IMG/VR virus record: IMGVR_UViG_3300003511_000001 | Span: 1 to 29,190 of that record | Origin: a virus | Direction: 5' to 3' (one strand) | Length of the DNA stretch: 29,190 nucleotides | In this document: positions 1,657 to 29,169 of the stretch, one piece after another | Position numbering within the stretch: the stretch's first letter is position 1 | Layout: each line of letters begins with the position of its first letter | Program-made: the position numbers and the translations under genes | The notes under the pieces: model-generated | Database searches by the model: none | Told to the model about the DNA's origin: nothing | Seen by the model: only the letters and a program-made list of their open reading frames with translations

Positions 1657-3117
1657 ATGGCTTTAAGATTAGGACATAAGAATATAGATTCTCTATTTCA
1701 CGAAACTGAAAATAAGATATTATTAAATAACTTATCTCATTTTGAAGATTTAGAGTTAAGAGATAAGCTTTATACTACTTACTCAGACAGTATATCTATG
1801 ATACCCCAATGTGAATGCGGAGAAATGAAGGGTGGATGGTTACTTGGTAAGGTATGTCCATATTGTTCTACATCAGTCACTAAGAAGTTTGTACAGATTA
1901 AACCTCTACTATGGGTTAAGAGTTATAATAATATACAATTCTTTAATCCTCATTTCTGGGGACAGCTTAAAGTACTCTTTAAATCCAATGGAGATAAAGG
2001 TATGGATGCTATTAGATGGCTATGTGATACTGAGTATAGAGTACAGAATGTTAAACCAATATTAAGAAACTTAGAATCTATTATAGGGGGTAGAGGATAT
2101 TCTAATTTTATTAATAGCTTACCAAAGATATTTACTTATCTTAAAAACAACTCTACATTTAAAGCTAATGATAAAGCTACTAAGGTAGCTATGTTAGAAG
2201 AGTTATACTTTAGAGAGAAAGATGTATTGTTCTCTGACTATCTAGGTCTTATAAATAAAAGATTATTTGTAATGGAAGTTACTAACAAGGGTAAGTTTAC
2301 ATCTTCTATGTTAGGTGATATTATTAATATATCATTAGCAGCGATAAAACTTACCACTGTCACCGACCCTAGAAAGGTAGAGAATGGTATTGCTTATATT
2401 ATATCTTCTATAAATGAACTCTTTGAAACATATATGAGAACATACATAGCAGGTAAGAAAGGAAATGTTCGTAGACATATTTATGGTACTAGAGTTAACT
2501 TTACAGCTAGAGCTGTTATTACTGCATTACCGTTAAAGTATGATTATGATACAATACATGTTCCATGGACTATAGGTGTAGTGGTTATGAGACCACATCT
2601 AATAAATAAGTTATCTAAGTTAGGTATGAGATATAGAGACATAAATGAAATACTATATGAAGCTACTATGCGACACATACCTATTATAGAAAAACTGCTA
2701 AATGAGTTAATAGCAGAAGCTCCTGGTAAAGGGATACCAGTAATCATCCATAGGAATCCTAGCTTACTTCCTGGATCATCTCTCTTCGTACATATTTCTA
2801 AATTTAAAACTGACTTAGAAGATAAGTCTGTAGGGATAAGTGTTCTAGTAGTAAAGGCTCAGAATGGAGATTTCGATGGAGATGAAGAGAACTTAGGTTT
2901 TGCACTCGATGTGAAGATGGAGAATATGATGAAGAACTTCTCACCCCACTATAACATCGTAGACCTAGACTTATTTAAAATTAATAAGAATCTATACTTA
3001 CCACCTACTACTATGGTTACATTATCTAATTATGTAGTATCTACCGTAAATACAAAAGATAATAAGTCTTGTCCAGTATATAGTAAATTACTAGAGAAAG
3101 CACACGCACATCGTTAA
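1657..3117 (+). CDS. RNA polymerase beta-prime subunit, N-terminal half (phage multisubunit RNAP)
   Basis: A 486-residue protein matching the N-terminal half of bacterial beta-prime, as in the split RNA polymerases of phiKZ-like phages. Seen in order: a zinc-ribbon-like cluster Cys52, Cys54, Cys67, Cys70; RRHIYGTRVNFTARAVI at about 272-288, the equivalent of the GKRVDFSGRSVI segment; IIHRNPSLLPGSSLFVHI at about 363-380, equivalent to the NRAPTLHR region; and the absolutely conserved metal-binding loop as NGDFDGDEEN, with Asp405, Asp407 and Asp409. Canonical beta-prime continues for hundreds of residues after this point (bridge helix, trigger loop), but here the protein ends about 75 residues later, so the C-terminal part must be another gene, not seen in this window. 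It has its own promoter motif and terminator and a perfect AAAGGAGAATT ribosome binding site. Whether it belongs to the virion-packaged or the non-virion polymerase cannot be told from sequence alone. Confidence 0.93.
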   Translation: MALRLGHKNIDSLFHETENKILLNNLSHFEDLELRDKLYTTYSDSISMIPQCECGEMKGGWLLGKVCPYCSTSVTKKFVQIKPLLWVKSYNNIQFFNPHFWGQLKVLFKSNGDKGMDAIRWLCDTEYRVQNVKPILRNLESIIGGRGYSNFINSLPKIFTYLKNNSTFKANDKATKVAMLEELYFREKDVLFSDYLGLINKRLFVMEVTNKGKFTSSMLGDIINISLAAIKLTTVTDPRKVENGIAYIISSINELFETYMRTYIAGKKGNVRRHIYGTRVNFTARAVITALPLKYDYDTIHVPWTIGVVVMRPHLINKLSKLGMRYRDINEILYEATMRHIPIIEKLLNELIAEAPGKGIPVIIHRNPSLLPGSSLFVHISKFKTDLEDKSVGISVLVVKAQNGDFDGDEENLGFALDVKMENMMKNFSPHYNIVDLDLFKINKNLYLPPTTMVTLSNYVVSTVNTKDNKSCPVYSKLLEKAHAHR

Positions 3118-3118
3118 T

Positions 3119-3151
3119 ACATGAGGTACTCCTAATAAGAGTACCTTGTGT
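3119..3151 (+). terminator. Terminator after beta-prime fragment
   Basis: 13-bp stem (3119-3131 with 3139-3151) with two G-T wobbles and a 7-base loop, just after the stop codon at 3115-3117. Confidence 0.7.
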
Positions 3152-3169
3152 TTATAAATATTTTTTATT

Positions 3170-3186
3170 TGTATATTATTAATGTG
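3170..3186 (+). promoter_or_regulatory. Phage promoter motif P2 (small RNA)
   Basis: TGTATATTATTAATGTG, a full match to the family consensus. No ORF follows for 260 bases; instead a run of perfect hairpins begins within three bases of the motif end. Confidence 0.65.
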
Positions 3187-3392
3187 AAGAAGTCGGATTC
3201 CTATATTGATAGATCAATGATAAATCTACATATAGGGTATATAGGAATCAGGCTTCCTAGTATATAGAACAACACAAAGTATCTATATACATAATTATTA
3301 CCTACATTTTTGTTACTTTTAATGTAGGAATATAACACAACTTACGCCCCCAAATACCAACATAACTAGATATGGTTATGTTGGTATCTTTT
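3187..3392 (+). ncRNA. Candidate four-hairpin small RNA (about 205 nt)
   Basis: The interval between the beta-prime terminator and the dUTPase promoter has no gene but carries a complete transcription unit. Promoter P2 ends at 3186. Hairpin 1: 3189-3194 pairs with 3251-3256, then a single G-A mismatch, then 11 perfect pairs (3196-3206 with 3239-3249); its loop can form a further small hairpin (3205-3209 with 3214-3218). Hairpin 2: 9 pairs (3260-3268 with 3282-3290), 13-base loop. Hairpin 3: 8 pairs (3301-3308 with 3321-3328), 12-base loop. Hairpin 4: 13 pairs (3354-3366 with 3375-3387), then TCTTTTATTT, acting as terminator. Single-stranded linkers are short; one carries CTTACGCCCCCAAA (3341-3354), the most C-rich run nearby. 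Four consecutive near-perfect hairpins between a promoter and a terminator are hard to explain as spacer. Function is unknown. Confidence 0.65.
3354..3392 (+). terminator. Terminator of the small RNA
   Basis: Perfect 13-bp stem (3354-3366 with 3375-3387), which can extend by two more pairs to a GATA loop, followed by TCTTTTATTTATTTT. It insulates the small RNA from the dUTPase promoter. Confidence 0.75.
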
Positions 3393-3414
3393 ATTTATTT
3401 TAATTTTATTTATT

Positions 3415-3431
3415 CATGTATCATTAATGTG
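3415..3431 (+). promoter_or_regulatory. Phage promoter motif P3 (dUTPase)
   Basis: CATGTATCATTAATGTG, copy of the 17-base family motif ending 21 bases before the dUTPase ATG, with TATAAGGAGACAAT between. Confidence 0.6.
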
Positions 3432-3452
3432 TTAAAAATATAAGGAGACAAT

Positions 3453-4154
3453 ATGAAAGATCCAAAAGTATTACTAAGTGCTTTATTAGAAAAGCAAAAT
3501 GAGTTAAATAACTTAACAAATGGTGAAGAGTGGACAAGTGGGTTTACTAATATAGGTAAAGTCATTAATTGGGATAGATGTATGTATATGGAGTCTTGTG
3601 AGTTGATGGATAGCTTCCCTTGGAAACATTGGAAAGATGTAAGTAAAGCTCCAGATTTAGATAATGCTCGTATAGAGGTAGTAGACTTATGGCATTTCCT
3701 ATTATCTAAGACTATAACATTAGGAGCTGAAGACCAAGTATTACATGCTATAACTGGAATGAAAACTAATGCAGTAAGCACCCAAGTCCAAATAGGTTCA
3801 AACTTAATCTTAGAACTTAATGATTCTTTCCTACGTGCTATTAATGGTCCAGATGTTGTTGAGCTAATGAATAGGTTAGTAGAGTTACAAGCAGCATTAG
3901 GTATGTCTTTAGAAGAGGTTCATGATTTATATATGATTAAGAACTTCTTGAATAGATTCAGACAAGAGAACGGATATGCTGAAGGTACATATATAAAACA
4001 CTTTAATGTTACTGTTAACGGAGAACTAAGTACATGGGAAGATAATACTTTACTTGTTAAATATGTAGATAAAGAAAAAGATTTAGAATTAGGTATCACT
4101 AAGTTTAAAGAAGCTTATAAAGCTTATGACCCTAAAGTAGGTATTACCATATAA
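3453..4154 (+). CDS. Dimeric all-alpha dUTPase (MazG-like superfamily)
   Basis: A 233-residue protein matching the dimeric dUTP diphosphatase family, which hydrolyses dUTP to dUMP and pyrophosphate and keeps uracil out of DNA. The hallmark metal-binding motifs are present: Glu47-x-x-Glu50, followed by SFPWKHWK (about 54-61), then Asp68 and IEVVDLWHFLLS (74-85) with Glu75 and Asp78, the family's E-x-x-E and E-x-x-D pairs. The C-terminal half contains NFLNRFRQENGY (about 166-177), which fits the substrate-binding N-x-x-R-x-x-x-G-Y region of the family. Single-gene unit with its own promoter motif, strong AAGGAG site and strong terminator. A dUTPase argues that this phage uses thymine DNA, unlike its relatives PBS1/AR9 and phiR1-37, which carry uracil. 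Confidence 0.88.
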   Translation: MKDPKVLLSALLEKQNELNNLTNGEEWTSGFTNIGKVINWDRCMYMESCELMDSFPWKHWKDVSKAPDLDNARIEVVDLWHFLLSKTITLGAEDQVLHAITGMKTNAVSTQVQIGSNLILELNDSFLRAINGPDVVELMNRLVELQAALGMSLEEVHDLYMIKNFLNRFRQENGYAEGTYIKHFNVTVNGELSTWEDNTLLVKYVDKEKDLELGITKFKEAYKAYDPKVGITI

Positions 4155-4161
4155 CCAATAT

Positions 4162-4194
4162 AAAGAATAGACTGTATCTAGCAGTCTATTCTTT
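4162..4194 (+). terminator. Terminator after dUTPase
   Basis: Perfect 13-bp stem (4162-4174 with 4182-4194), 7-base loop, followed by A+T-rich sequence. Its 3' arm runs into the 57-base repeat shared with 12778-12834. Confidence 0.75.
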
Positions 4195-4245
4195 ATTAAT
4201 TTATTTCATCTATATATTATTAATATGTTTATAGAAAGTAACAAA
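4189..4245 (+). repeat. 57-base promoter-region repeat, copy 1
   Basis: Identical to 12778-12834 except for one A/G difference (4212 versus 12801). It spans the last bases of a terminator stem, a T-rich spacer, the promoter motif and the 5' leader TTATAGAAAGTAACAAA. Confidence 0.9.
4211..4227 (+). promoter_or_regulatory. Phage promoter motif P4
   Basis: TATATATTATTAATATG, a full match to the family consensus, 35 bases upstream of the next start codon. Confidence 0.65.
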
Positions 4246-4262
4246 ATAATAAAGGAGTAATA

Positions 4263-5150: not shown

Positions 5151-7291
5151 TAATACTTAACTTTAGTATTTTCTAATTTAGTTATTCTTTTTATAATCTT
5201 AATCTCTTTAAGAAGACTATCTAAGTTAAAGTTCTTTATGATTCTTTTATTTATCTTAGCTTCTAGCATTCTAATCTTATTTAATATTCTTAAAGCTATA
5301 TGTTCATGAGTTTCACTCTTTAAACTATCTACTAATTGATTAATATTATGTCTAAGTAATTCTTGTTCTTTAATAACTTTTAAATCTTCACCCTCAACAC
5401 CTGCTAATAGTTCATTATCTATAACTGATTTAAGAACATGACCTTCAGTTATATTATAATACTTTTTACCATTACCAGATACTAAGAACCAATAAGCTAG
5501 TAACCAAGCTATAACCATATCATCGTGAGAACCCTTAGCATGGTCTATACGCCCATTTCTTATCTCTAGTGATAGTAACTGTTGTATTAATAAAGGATCT
5601 CTTGTAAGGTTACCTGCGTACTTTATAGAAGCATTGAATATATTACCATATAAGTTAGTACGACTAGTAGCTCCACCACCACTAGTAGCAAATCCTAAAT
5701 ACTTTCTACATTTAGTAAGCTCTTCCTGACTAGGTACCCTATTAGCAAATATCTCTTTAAATTTATCTTTATAGATATGCCCATCTTGGAATAGCCAGTT
5801 AAATATCTTCTTAAACGGATTAACTCCTTTAGTAGCTAAGATAGTTATTAGATTATCCATAATACCTACAGCACTACTTCTTCTCTCTGGTATGAATAGT
5901 ATACTATTATGATTTATTAATATCTCAGATAAGAAATCAGAGAACAATGTTAAGTTAGTTTCATTATAGTCACCCGCACCTACAACAGATGCATCCTCAC
6001 TAAACCTATAAACTAACCCCATACCATCCTGACCTACAGCGTCACTACTATCAAATCCTAGAATTAGAAAACCTTTCTGTTGCATCCTAACCTTATCTTG
6101 TTCAGATACATACCATCTAGTAATATAACCGTGCTCACTTATCTCTACCCTAGATGTCTTCTTTTCACTATCTTTAATAATAGCTACTAAATCTTTACTA
6201 ATAGGACTATTAGCTCCACTACCTACCCACTTATTAAGGAAGTCACTCTCTACATCATCTCCTTCTGATAACGCAGTAGCTATTCTTTTCTTTAACCATT
6301 GGTCGGTATAACCTAGTTGTCTATGATTAAACTCTACTAGTATAAGTTGGAAACCAGTACGACCACCATTCTTTTCTACTAAAGTTTCTAATGCTTCTCT
6401 GTTAGCTAAGTCAAAGAACTCCTCACTCCATCTAAGAGCAGCATCATACATCTTTTTAGCAAATCTACCACTCTCGCTGTATAATTTACCAGGAGTAGTT
6501 AAGAAGAAAGTACCATAAGGCACACCAGCTCTATCAGCAACCTCTCTAGCATCTGTAGTAGCTGCTAAGATAACAGGTAAGGTGATAGCAATATTAGGAA
6601 CATATGCAGTCTCATCTATCTCTACGATAGGAGTAGTCATACCCCGCCCAGTATTATCTGCTGCTTTCTTATCAGTCCTACCAACATATATATTTATCAT
6701 ATTCGATAATTTCTTAACTGTGATTCTTTCACTATTCTTAATATCTGATTTATGTATCATTTTTAAGTAAGATGGGAACAAATCCATTATCTCTCTTATC
6801 TGTATTGATGTTTTATTTCTTAATTTATCATCCTTAGTAAGTAGTGATATATCTGCATTAGTAATACCTATGCCAGCTAACCACGCATTTAATTCATTAG
6901 CAGTTAATGATTTACCAGTTTGTCTAATTTGTATTAGCATCTGTGTTATATGATTAAAGAATAACCAGAAGAAAGCCATGTTAGCCCTGTTAGCTCTAAA
7001 CTGAATAGGTTCATTACCAGCAGGAGGTGGTACTCTAGCTATTTCTCTAATATGGTACCAGAAGTTATCTCTAGCTTCTACTGCTATCATAGTTTGTATT
7101 TCTAAAGATAAATTATCATCGTGTGGATCTACATCTTTTAGAAGTGGATTGTGTAAAGCTAAACAGAACGCATGATTATCAATACCCATATACTTTAATA
7201 AACTTGCGTATCTTAAGAAGCTTTCATTCTTAGTGGTTACGTGAACTATTGCTCCTGGGTATTTAGCCCAGTCTTTTCTAAAAAGAATCAT
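5147..7291 (-). CDS. terL: Terminase large subunit (packaging ATPase/nuclease, phiKZ type)
   Basis: A 714-residue protein that powers DNA packaging into the prohead and cuts concatemers. The ATPase half shows Walker A IRQTGKS (122-128, Lys127), Walker B IVEIDE (222-227, Asp226/Glu227) and a coupling motif LTTP (264-267). The nuclease half has RNase H-fold acids: Asp414 in ILGFDSSD, Glu469 in LFIPERRSS, and Asp590/Asp591 in KGSHDDMVIAWLLAYWFL. The long N-terminal lead-in before Walker A (PFRANRANMAFFWLFFNHI-like region at about 95-115) and overall length are as in phiKZ-like terminases. The extra C-terminal 100 residues are helical and lysine-rich. Start chosen at the ATG after ACAGGAAATATAAAA; it is 16 bases downstream of the preceding gene of the same strand, so the two share a transcript. 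All catalytic residues are intact. Confidence 0.95.
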   Translation of the reverse strand: MILFRKDWAKYPGAIVHVTTKNESFLRYASLLKYMGIDNHAFCLALHNPLLKDVDPHDDNLSLEIQTMIAVEARDNFWYHIREIARVPPPAGNEPIQFRANRANMAFFWLFFNHITQMLIQIRQTGKSLTANELNAWLAGIGITNADISLLTKDDKLRNKTSIQIREIMDLFPSYLKMIHKSDIKNSERITVKKLSNMINIYVGRTDKKAADNTGRGMTTPIVEIDETAYVPNIAITLPVILAATTDAREVADRAGVPYGTFFLTTPGKLYSESGRFAKKMYDAALRWSEEFFDLANREALETLVEKNGGRTGFQLILVEFNHRQLGYTDQWLKKRIATALSEGDDVESDFLNKWVGSGANSPISKDLVAIIKDSEKKTSRVEISEHGYITRWYVSEQDKVRMQQKGFLILGFDSSDAVGQDGMGLVYRFSEDASVVGAGDYNETNLTLFSDFLSEILINHNSILFIPERRSSAVGIMDNLITILATKGVNPFKKIFNWLFQDGHIYKDKFKEIFANRVPSQEELTKCRKYLGFATSGGGATSRTNLYGNIFNASIKYAGNLTRDPLLIQQLLSLEIRNGRIDHAKGSHDDMVIAWLLAYWFLVSGNGKKYYNITEGHVLKSVIDNELLAGVEGEDLKVIKEQELLRHNINQLVDSLKSETHEHIALRILNKIRMLEAKINKRIIKNFNLDSLLKEIKIIKRITKLENTKVKYY

Positions 7292-12747: not shown

Positions 12748-12750
12748 CAT

Positions 12751-12783
12751 AAAGAACAAACTACTAAATGTAGTTTGTTCTTT
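12751..12783 (+). terminator. Terminator after tubulin gene
   Basis: Perfect 13-bp stem (12751-12763 with 12771-12783), extendable by one C-G pair into the 7-base loop. Stem ends in TTCTTT and runs into the second 57-base repeat, as at 4162-4194. Confidence 0.8.
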
Positions 12784-12834
12784 ATTAATTTATTTCATCT
12801 GTATATTATTAATATGTTTATAGAAAGTAACAAA
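12778..12834 (+). repeat. 57-base promoter-region repeat, copy 2
   Basis: Differs at one base from 4189-4245. Both copies sit between a terminator and the first gene of an unknown cluster, so a whole terminator-promoter-leader cassette has been duplicated or conserved. Confidence 0.9.
12800..12816 (+). promoter_or_regulatory. Phage promoter motif P5
   Basis: TGTATATTATTAATATG, a full match to the consensus, 28 bases upstream of the first gene of the small-gene cluster. Confidence 0.65.
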
Positions 12835-12844
12835 GAGGTAATAT

Positions 12845-20176: not shown

Positions 20177-20218
20177 ACCAGTAAAGTAACTGGATTAAAT
20201 ATTCTATAGGAGATATAT

Positions 20219-28494: not shown

Positions 28495-29169
28495 ATGAAG
28501 AATCGTAAGAAAGCAGAAACCTATATCTTATCGGTAATAAAAGATATCACTAAGTCTGAACATAATGTAAAACTTTATAGAGATTTATTTAAAAGTATGT
28601 CAGATAAGCAGTTTGATGCATTTATGACTAGGTTAGATAATGAGGATGGTTATTTAGAAGTCATAGTACCTATAGATGACGATGTATTTGATGGTAAGAT
28701 AACCGTAGATAATAATATTAAAGTAGCTTCTAAACTTAATTATAACTTTGAACAAAGATTATTAATAGAAGCTACTGATTCTACACCTTCCCATTTAACT
28801 ACTAATAAGTATATTATATTAGATTTACCATTTAGAAGAACTAAACAGTTACTTACTAAGGGTATTAGAACAGCTAGTGATTCTAATAGCATTGATACAT
28901 TAACAGGACAAGTTAAGAATAACAGTAGTGCTAATATGATGACATATCCTGAACTACAGTTATTATCTAGTTATGGTTTAGACCAATCAGTGTTAGAAGT
29001 AATAAAGGATAGAGGTGGTGACCAAGATTCTTTAGTAGCTTTGTTAACTATGCTAAGAGAGAAAGGTACAGTTTCAAGAAATGAAGTAGAACAACACTCA
29101 GGTGGAGTAGGTTCTACTAAATCTTTAAAGAACTACTTTTCAGCAATGCACATAAAAAATAATATATAG
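28495..29169 (+). CDS. Possible RNA polymerase beta C-terminal-like protein, 224 residues
   Basis: Not securely recognised. The C-terminal half resembles the end of bacterial RNA polymerase beta: YIILDLPFRRTKQLLTKGIRTAS (106-128) lines up with the YMLKLNHLVDDKMHARSTG segment; TGQVKNN..MMTYPELQLLSSYGLDQSVLEVI (137-170) with the [23 protein letters not shown] segment and following helix; and TKSLKNYFSAMHIKNNI (208-224) with the ESFNVLLKEIRSLGINIEL terminus. Upstream catalytic beta motifs are absent; the first 100 residues are charged and helical (SVIKDITKSEHNVKLYRDLF). No Shine-Dalgarno sequence lies before the ATG and the previous stop is six bases away, so translation is probably coupled. Alternative: a virion or regulatory protein with coincidental likeness. 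Confidence 0.6.
   Translation: MKNRKKAETYILSVIKDITKSEHNVKLYRDLFKSMSDKQFDAFMTRLDNEDGYLEVIVPIDDDVFDGKITVDNNIKVASKLNYNFEQRLLIEATDSTPSHLTTNKYIILDLPFRRTKQLLTKGIRTASDSNSIDTLTGQVKNNSSANMMTYPELQLLSSYGLDQSVLEVIKDRGGDQDSLVALLTMLREKGTVSRNEVEQHSGGVGSTKSLKNYFSAMHIKNNI

Follow-up and report, generated by a model that had tools for sequence, protein, structure and literature searches.

Nucleotides 3187 to 3392 of a 29,190-base virus record (G000; the window, meaning the whole stretch analyzed) probably constitute a stand-alone early small-RNA gene. The fold, a promoter matrix, and the terminator lend good support to the original prediction of a compact gene for a non-coding RNA, with a promoter and a terminator of its own. 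At the sequence level, the locus is an independent transcription unit with both signals and no ORF.

The window is part of the genome of a phage akin to the nucleus-forming jumbo phages, and the families that its proteins match are those of jumbo phages that have multisubunit RNA polymerases. Besides two polymerase genes, it encodes a head maturation protease, a PhuZ tubulin, and a terminase. The best named relatives of its beta' protein come from Burkholderia phage FLC9 (33% identity) and from Pseudomonas phages of the phiKZ type (~30%). Two IMG/VR genomes of ~186 kb each (G001 and G002) have a gene order in common with most of the window at ~25 to 58% protein identity, and two fragments (G003 and G004) are somewhat more distant. 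The gene for the nuclear shell protein, chmA, is absent from the 29,190-base window itself and present in G001, G002, and G004; its presence there would therefore place the source phage in the neighborhood of nucleus-forming phages.

The locus between the beta' and dUTPase genes

The features of the locus, together with the second polymerase gene of the window, are as follows.

1657-3117, + strand: RNA polymerase beta' fragment, the upstream neighbor of the small RNA
3119-3151, + strand: beta' terminator hairpin (inverted repeat, fold)
3146-3186, + strand: early-type promoter of the small RNA, a T-rich stretch and TATATTATTAATGTG; matrix score 20.5
3187-3392, + strand: putative small non-coding RNA of ~206 nt; 5' end placed at 3186/3187 from the motif
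3189-3256, + strand: hairpin 1, 17 pairs with one G-A mismatch (3189-3206 with 3239-3256) and a weaker inner hairpin
3260-3290, + strand: hairpin 2, a perfect 9-bp stem (3260-3268/3282-3290)
3296-3332, + strand: hairpin 3, a perfect 8-bp stem (3301-3308/3321-3328) with a 4-bp extension (12 pairs)
3333-3353, + strand: unpaired linker with the C run ACGCCCCC; unpaired probabilities near 1
3354-3395, + strand: intrinsic-type terminator, a perfect 13-bp stem (3354-3366/3375-3387) followed by a T-rich tail
3391-3431, + strand: separate dUTPase promoter; score 19.2 with the matrix derived from relatives only
3453-4154, + strand: dUTPase gene (family PF08761)
28495-29169: another RNA polymerase subunit

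Folding and an inverted-repeat search both recovered the four hairpins that had been predicted at 3187-3392, at the same positions. The minimum free energy of the region is -61.0 kcal/mol, compared with a mean of -32.7 kcal/mol for dinucleotide shuffles (z -6.72, none of 200 as stable), and without the terminator hairpin it is -41.4 kcal/mol (z -4.74, again 0/200). A cruder Markov shuffle gave z -4.06 for the whole and -3.28 without the terminator hairpin, also with none of 200 shuffles as stable. In the predicted fold the 13-nt loop of hairpin 2, ACAACACAAAGTA, is partly closed and the terminator stem extends to 15 pairs; the loop of hairpin 3 comprises 12 nt (3309-3320, TTTGTTACTTTT). The C-rich run originally put at 3341-3354 exists, its position being corrected here to 3347-3351.

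The region holds no plausible reading frame, as had been claimed. The + strand frames comprise 16 codons from an ATG at 3218, a 39-codon GTG frame that starts upstream in the promoter region, and 23 codons within the terminator; no ribosome-binding site is visible for any of them, and alternative coding was rejected. An Rfam search, proposed together with the original prediction, matched no family, there being no meaningful match at gathering or relaxed thresholds, and a tRNA/tmRNA scan of the region found none.

A generic sigma-70 promoter scan was uninformative in the AT-rich DNA of the window, and a matrix was therefore derived from relatives, trained on G001 and G002 sites only and then applied to the window. 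The group motif is TATATTA(T/C)TAA(T/G)NTG, with a T-rich stretch centered near -23 and an A at -30, and precedes early-type genes in all five records. In the four relatives, 68 of 68 intergenic matches lie on one strand, nearly all of them 20 to 60 nt before a gene, and the chmA and beta' genes of the relatives carry the same promoter type. In the window, exactly six sites score above the threshold, every one of them on the + strand. A gene follows five of these at a distance of 21 to 42 nt (beta', dUTPase, orf4263, orf12845, and orf20219), and the sixth ends at 3186 and adjoins the hairpins. The promoter predicted to end there is thus borne out by the exact motif TATATTATTAATGTG at 3172-3186, and its score of 20.5 compares with a best score of 16.5 among 100 shuffled windows.

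In the phiKZ group, early promoters are described as having a conserved AT-rich block of ~10 nt near -10, and it is the virion polymerase that transcribes from them (PMC7598289); chmA belongs to the early genes of such phages (PMC12908238). Since the window motif fits the description of phiKZ-group early promoters, we infer that the small RNA would be expressed early.

The beta' terminator and the dUTPase promoter that were said to flank the unit also proved real, so that the locus runs from the beta' terminator through a promoter, four hairpins including a terminator, and a second promoter to the dUTPase gene. Most promoter-bearing genes in the window have a terminator hairpin of the same kind upstream, and the small RNA would fit as a further gene into this succession of short transcription units.

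Complementarity between loop 3 and early leaders

Each unpaired segment of the small RNA was compared with the leaders of the promoter-driven genes, a choice made after seeing the sequence. The candidate seed and its putative targets are the following.

3309-3319, + strand: candidate seed TTTGTTACTTT in the 12-nt loop of hairpin 3; opening cost 0.11 kcal/mol
4235-4245, + strand: putative target AAAGTAACAAA in the orf4263 leader, starting at +8; duplex -13.3, net -13.1 kcal/mol
12824-12834, + strand: putative target AAAGTAACAAA in the orf12845 leader, starting at +8; duplex -14.3, net -13.0 kcal/mol
20183-20190, + strand: weaker putative target AAAGTAAC in the orf20219 leader, an 8-nt match; net -3.0 kcal/mol
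1637-1648, + strand: weaker putative target AAAGTAAACAAA in the beta' leader at +8, 7 nt contiguous with one bulged base; net -4.9 kcal/mol

Eleven of the 12 bases of loop 3 (3309-3319) are a perfect complement of AAAGTAACAAA, giving an accessible seed of 11 nt in an open loop that matches leaders encoded elsewhere; the complementarity to the orf4263 leader reaches 12 nt if 4246 is counted. Loop 3 is unpaired and both best targets are accessible in the prediction, leaving a net energy of about -13 kcal/mol after opening costs. When the whole + strand was scanned with loop 3, the orf12845 leader ranked first (-14.3 kcal/mol) and the orf4263 leader second (-13.3 kcal/mol), with a coding-region site at 28992 close behind them in third place (-12.7 kcal/mol). 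None of the other unpaired segments of the small RNA had its best + strand site in a leader. The + strand of the 29 kb has only three copies of the shorter element AAAGTAAC, each at +7/+8 of an early leader; the copy in the orf20219 leader lies within a 5'-terminal hairpin, in its loop. The dUTPase leader is without the leader element. Loop 2 or the linker could pair with the tail of the beta' terminator (7 to 11 nt), but this was disfavored, as the sites lie inside a strong stem.

Matches of at least 11 nt to some leader arose in 112 of 5,000 shuffled small RNAs, and matches of that length to the small RNA in 168 of 5,000 sets of shuffled leaders; the chance of the 11-nt match by shuffling is thus about 0.02 to 0.03, for a test picked post hoc that covered several segments. 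The full set of matches (11, 8, and 7 nt in three independent leaders) was equaled in 3 of 5,000 shuffles, by a measure defined after the result, with the orf4263 and orf12845 leaders counted as one event because they are near-copies. In 53 leaders from relatives, phages without the small RNA, the loop 3 match was at most 6 nt, an imperfect control because leaders within one phage resemble each other.

Of the roles first suggested for the RNA, that of a regulator gains a moderately strong new lead from the antisense relation of loop 3 to the early-leader element, the pairing itself being a prediction. We tentatively consider a trans-acting antisense regulator of early phage mRNAs to be the most likely single mechanism, where both intracellular pairing and the direction of the regulation are our reading of the sequence. 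The phage polymerase that reads early-type promoters would start at ~3187 and stop at the 3354-3395 terminator, yielding an RNA of ~206 nt whose stems would protect it and keep the 12-nt loop of hairpin 3 open. This loop would pair with AAAGUAAC(AAA) at +8 of early phage leaders, with orf12845, whose site abuts the ribosome-binding site, and orf4263 as the best partners, and the accumulating small RNA would lower translation or stability of early mRNAs. Because the predicted pairing abuts and partly covers the Shine-Dalgarno sequence GAGG of orf12845, reduced translation would be the natural prediction. A more specific version, in which a single RNA made from the same early promoter serves as a shared antisense brake on a set of early mRNAs in trans through the common +8 leader element and thereby restrains the early programme, is conceivable and less likely.

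It is rather unlikely that the stand-alone small RNA has its targets in the host. The complementarity to leaders would then be chance, and the linker AACUUACGCCCCC or another loop would pair with host mRNAs or bind a host RNA-binding protein. An 11-nt leader match does turn up in 2 to 3% of shuffles; the linker is the longest unpaired stretch, and its C run is without a strong partner in the phage leaders. For known phage sRNAs such as PreS, VpdS, and 24B_1, too, the targets are mRNAs or RNA networks of the host (PMC12197685). However, no host target can be named, the leader match occupies the only 12-nt hairpin loop that is fully open, and the matched element repeats at a fixed place in early leaders.

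Two further observations concern the leaders of these phages. The intergenic regions at 4155-4262 and 12748-12844 of the window are near-copies, terminator, promoter, and leader included, and suggest that entire promoter-leader cassettes have been duplicated or have undergone gene conversion. Many early transcripts of the group start with a small hairpin at +1, such as GTACAGTGTAC in G003; examples are found in G003 (72355, 52190, and 32596), G001 (182148 and 175485), the window (20177-20193), and the distant jumbo phage L047 (4137-4164). In the orf20219 leader of the window and in L047, the loop of this hairpin holds AAAGTA(A). A scan for the promoter plus the AAAGTAA pattern returned three contigs, two of them with the same leader hairpin; none is a further piece of the source phage, and the longest belongs to another jumbo phage with 26% beta' identity.

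The locus and similar units in related phages

In G001 and G002 the beta' gene lies close to the orf4263 family, and the interval is filled by one protein, of 348 and 339 amino acids, respectively. Since neither the small RNA nor the dUTPase gene is found there, the two look like a lineage-specific insertion. A DNA search of phage records with 3050-3500 gave no match, the exact stem pattern was found in none of the viral contigs searched, and bacterial and archaeal genomes searched for the small RNA yielded nothing. Protein-led searches led only to relatives at ~41 to 58% protein identity or lower, none with the small RNA. Weak DNA matches in G002 (153785 and 153998) and G005 (147285 and 129652) are located within coding sequence or where a gene begins and were put down to chance.

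Units of a similar layout were found in the relatives, two of them upstream of chmA.

G001, 130360-130465 (130466 to 130359), - strand: tandem-promoter hairpin RNA upstream of chmA; z -4.4
G002, 52034-52143 (52144 to 52033), - strand: tandem-promoter hairpin RNA upstream of chmA; z -4.1
G001, 133918-133862: a further, very short promoter-hairpin-promoter unit; z -5.7

The two chmA-upstream units occupy the same place in G001 and G002, and each consists of two promoters of the same type around a hairpin RNA of 92 to 96 nt with three hairpins, G002 having a fourth with a 13-bp stem. They resemble the window unit in promoter type and in the succession of hairpins and a second promoter that belongs to a gene, but they differ in sequence, in length (~92 to 96 nt), in genome place, and in having no antisense match to leaders. 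They align neither with each other nor with the window unit. A rule that such hairpin RNAs are antisense to the leaders of their own phage does not hold, as the chmA-upstream RNAs of G001 and G002 match no leaders of their own genomes. Small hairpin RNAs before early genes may thus be a habit of this phage group, and the antisense seed, if real, would be particular to the source phage.

This recurrence of tandem promoters that enclose a hairpin RNA, with a common layout and no alignable sequence, would fit a role of structure. The RNA would then have no base-pairing targets and be a protein ligand or titrator, or transcription itself would matter, for instance as an insulator between beta' and dUTPase. 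We consider this unlikely. One terminator would suffice for a simple insulator, and the beta' gene comes with one already; the window unit is longer than the units of the relatives and ends in a terminator of the same type as those of genes. Nor does it have CsrA/Rsm-type GGA loops or match 6S or any other Rfam family.

The more specific structural candidates were rejected individually. The proposed protein decoy, if of the CsrA/Rsm type, fails for want of a GGA in any apical loop: as in the case against a CsrA/RsmA-titrating RNA like RsmY/Z or CsrB, the three GGA motifs (3195, 3244, and 3327) lie in or at stems. The suggestion of a polymerase-associated RNA is likewise not upheld, there being no 6S-like match; 6S RNA (RF00013) gave none at the gathering score or up to E = 5. 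As two relatives keep the beta' gene with neither small RNA nor dUTPase at that place, nothing about the neighborhood calls for linking the RNA with the polymerase gene. A phi29-type packaging RNA was set aside in the absence of any kind of Rfam match at the gathering score.

That transcription from 3187 runs into the dUTPase gene, the hairpins being a long structured 5' UTR or the remains of a decayed gene, is very unlikely: structured leaders do occur in relatives (G001 140624) and the locus is a gene-turnover site between beta' and the orf4263 family, but the unit ends with a perfect 13-bp hairpin and a T-rich tail, a second promoter of the same type precedes the dUTPase gene, no ORF remnant is present, and the arrangement as a series of short units makes read-through improbable.

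Known phage RNAs and other non-coding elements

Grad-seq of phiKZ identified two ncRNAs, one of ~100 nt from the 3' UTR of PHIKZ298 and one of ~180 nt from the 5' UTR of p40, each with two stems. The former is thought to be cut from an mRNA, no start site having been mapped, and the latter is part of the 5' UTR (PMC8545117). The window RNA is like them non-coding, hairpin-rich, and of similar size, and phiKZ too is a chmA-bearing phage with multisubunit RNA polymerases; the window RNA differs in its own promoter and terminator and in its four hairpins. A UTR-derived ncRNA of the phiKZ type was rejected because of the promoter ending at 3186.

The P22 sar RNA, which is encoded opposite its target, prevents the initiation of translation by pairing with a phage mRNA, and lambda PreS and VP882 VpdS depend on Hfq (PMC12197685). 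All three are small phage RNAs proposed or shown to pair near translation starts, as is proposed for the window RNA, which would join this broad kind of antisense and trans-acting phage RNAs. They come from temperate phages. The putative targets of the window RNA comprise several early leaders at other places in its own genome.

Jumbo phages have few known non-coding RNAs. According to the phiKZ study, none had been predicted by start-site mapping, and ~21 were then known in all phages (PMC8545117). An early RNA that stands alone and has a predicted seed and named targets would, if true, be a directly testable case of RNA control, one that would bear on the step from early to later expression, at which the genome leaves the early vesicle for the phage nucleus. 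Such RNAs could be sought in related phages with the promoter matrix and the tandem-promoter units.

Other elements were noted in these genomes. In both relatives the beta' gene is interrupted at the same place by intron-like sequence (L003 5357-7540; G002 99.5-101.7 kb), right at the catalytic motif after ...PNGD, and the insert holds an HNH-type reading frame; L003 gave no Rfam group I match at the gathering score. The beta' gene of the window is uninterrupted, with DFDGD intact. A GC-richer structured non-coding element (G001 124354-124756, +; G002 45303-45790, +; G002 5891-6153, +) shares the blocks GCCTC..TGAGGT... and TTAGCTGG..GGAATC..GGGGGAG.., and Rfam gave no match for any stretch scanned. 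The two G002 copies are 67 to 73% alike, the G001 copy being similar by eye only.

Positions 1 to 830 of the window, at the contig end, are a long pyrimidine-rich non-coding stretch that includes a polypyrimidine tract at 50-90. Upstream of the terminase gene, long non-coding stretches (G002 89795-91010; G001 169506-171143) contain several near-perfect inverted repeats, with arms of up to 54 nt at 96% and 42 nt at 100%, and a polypurine/polypyrimidine tract like that at 44-90 of the window; they are perhaps an origin or terminus region.
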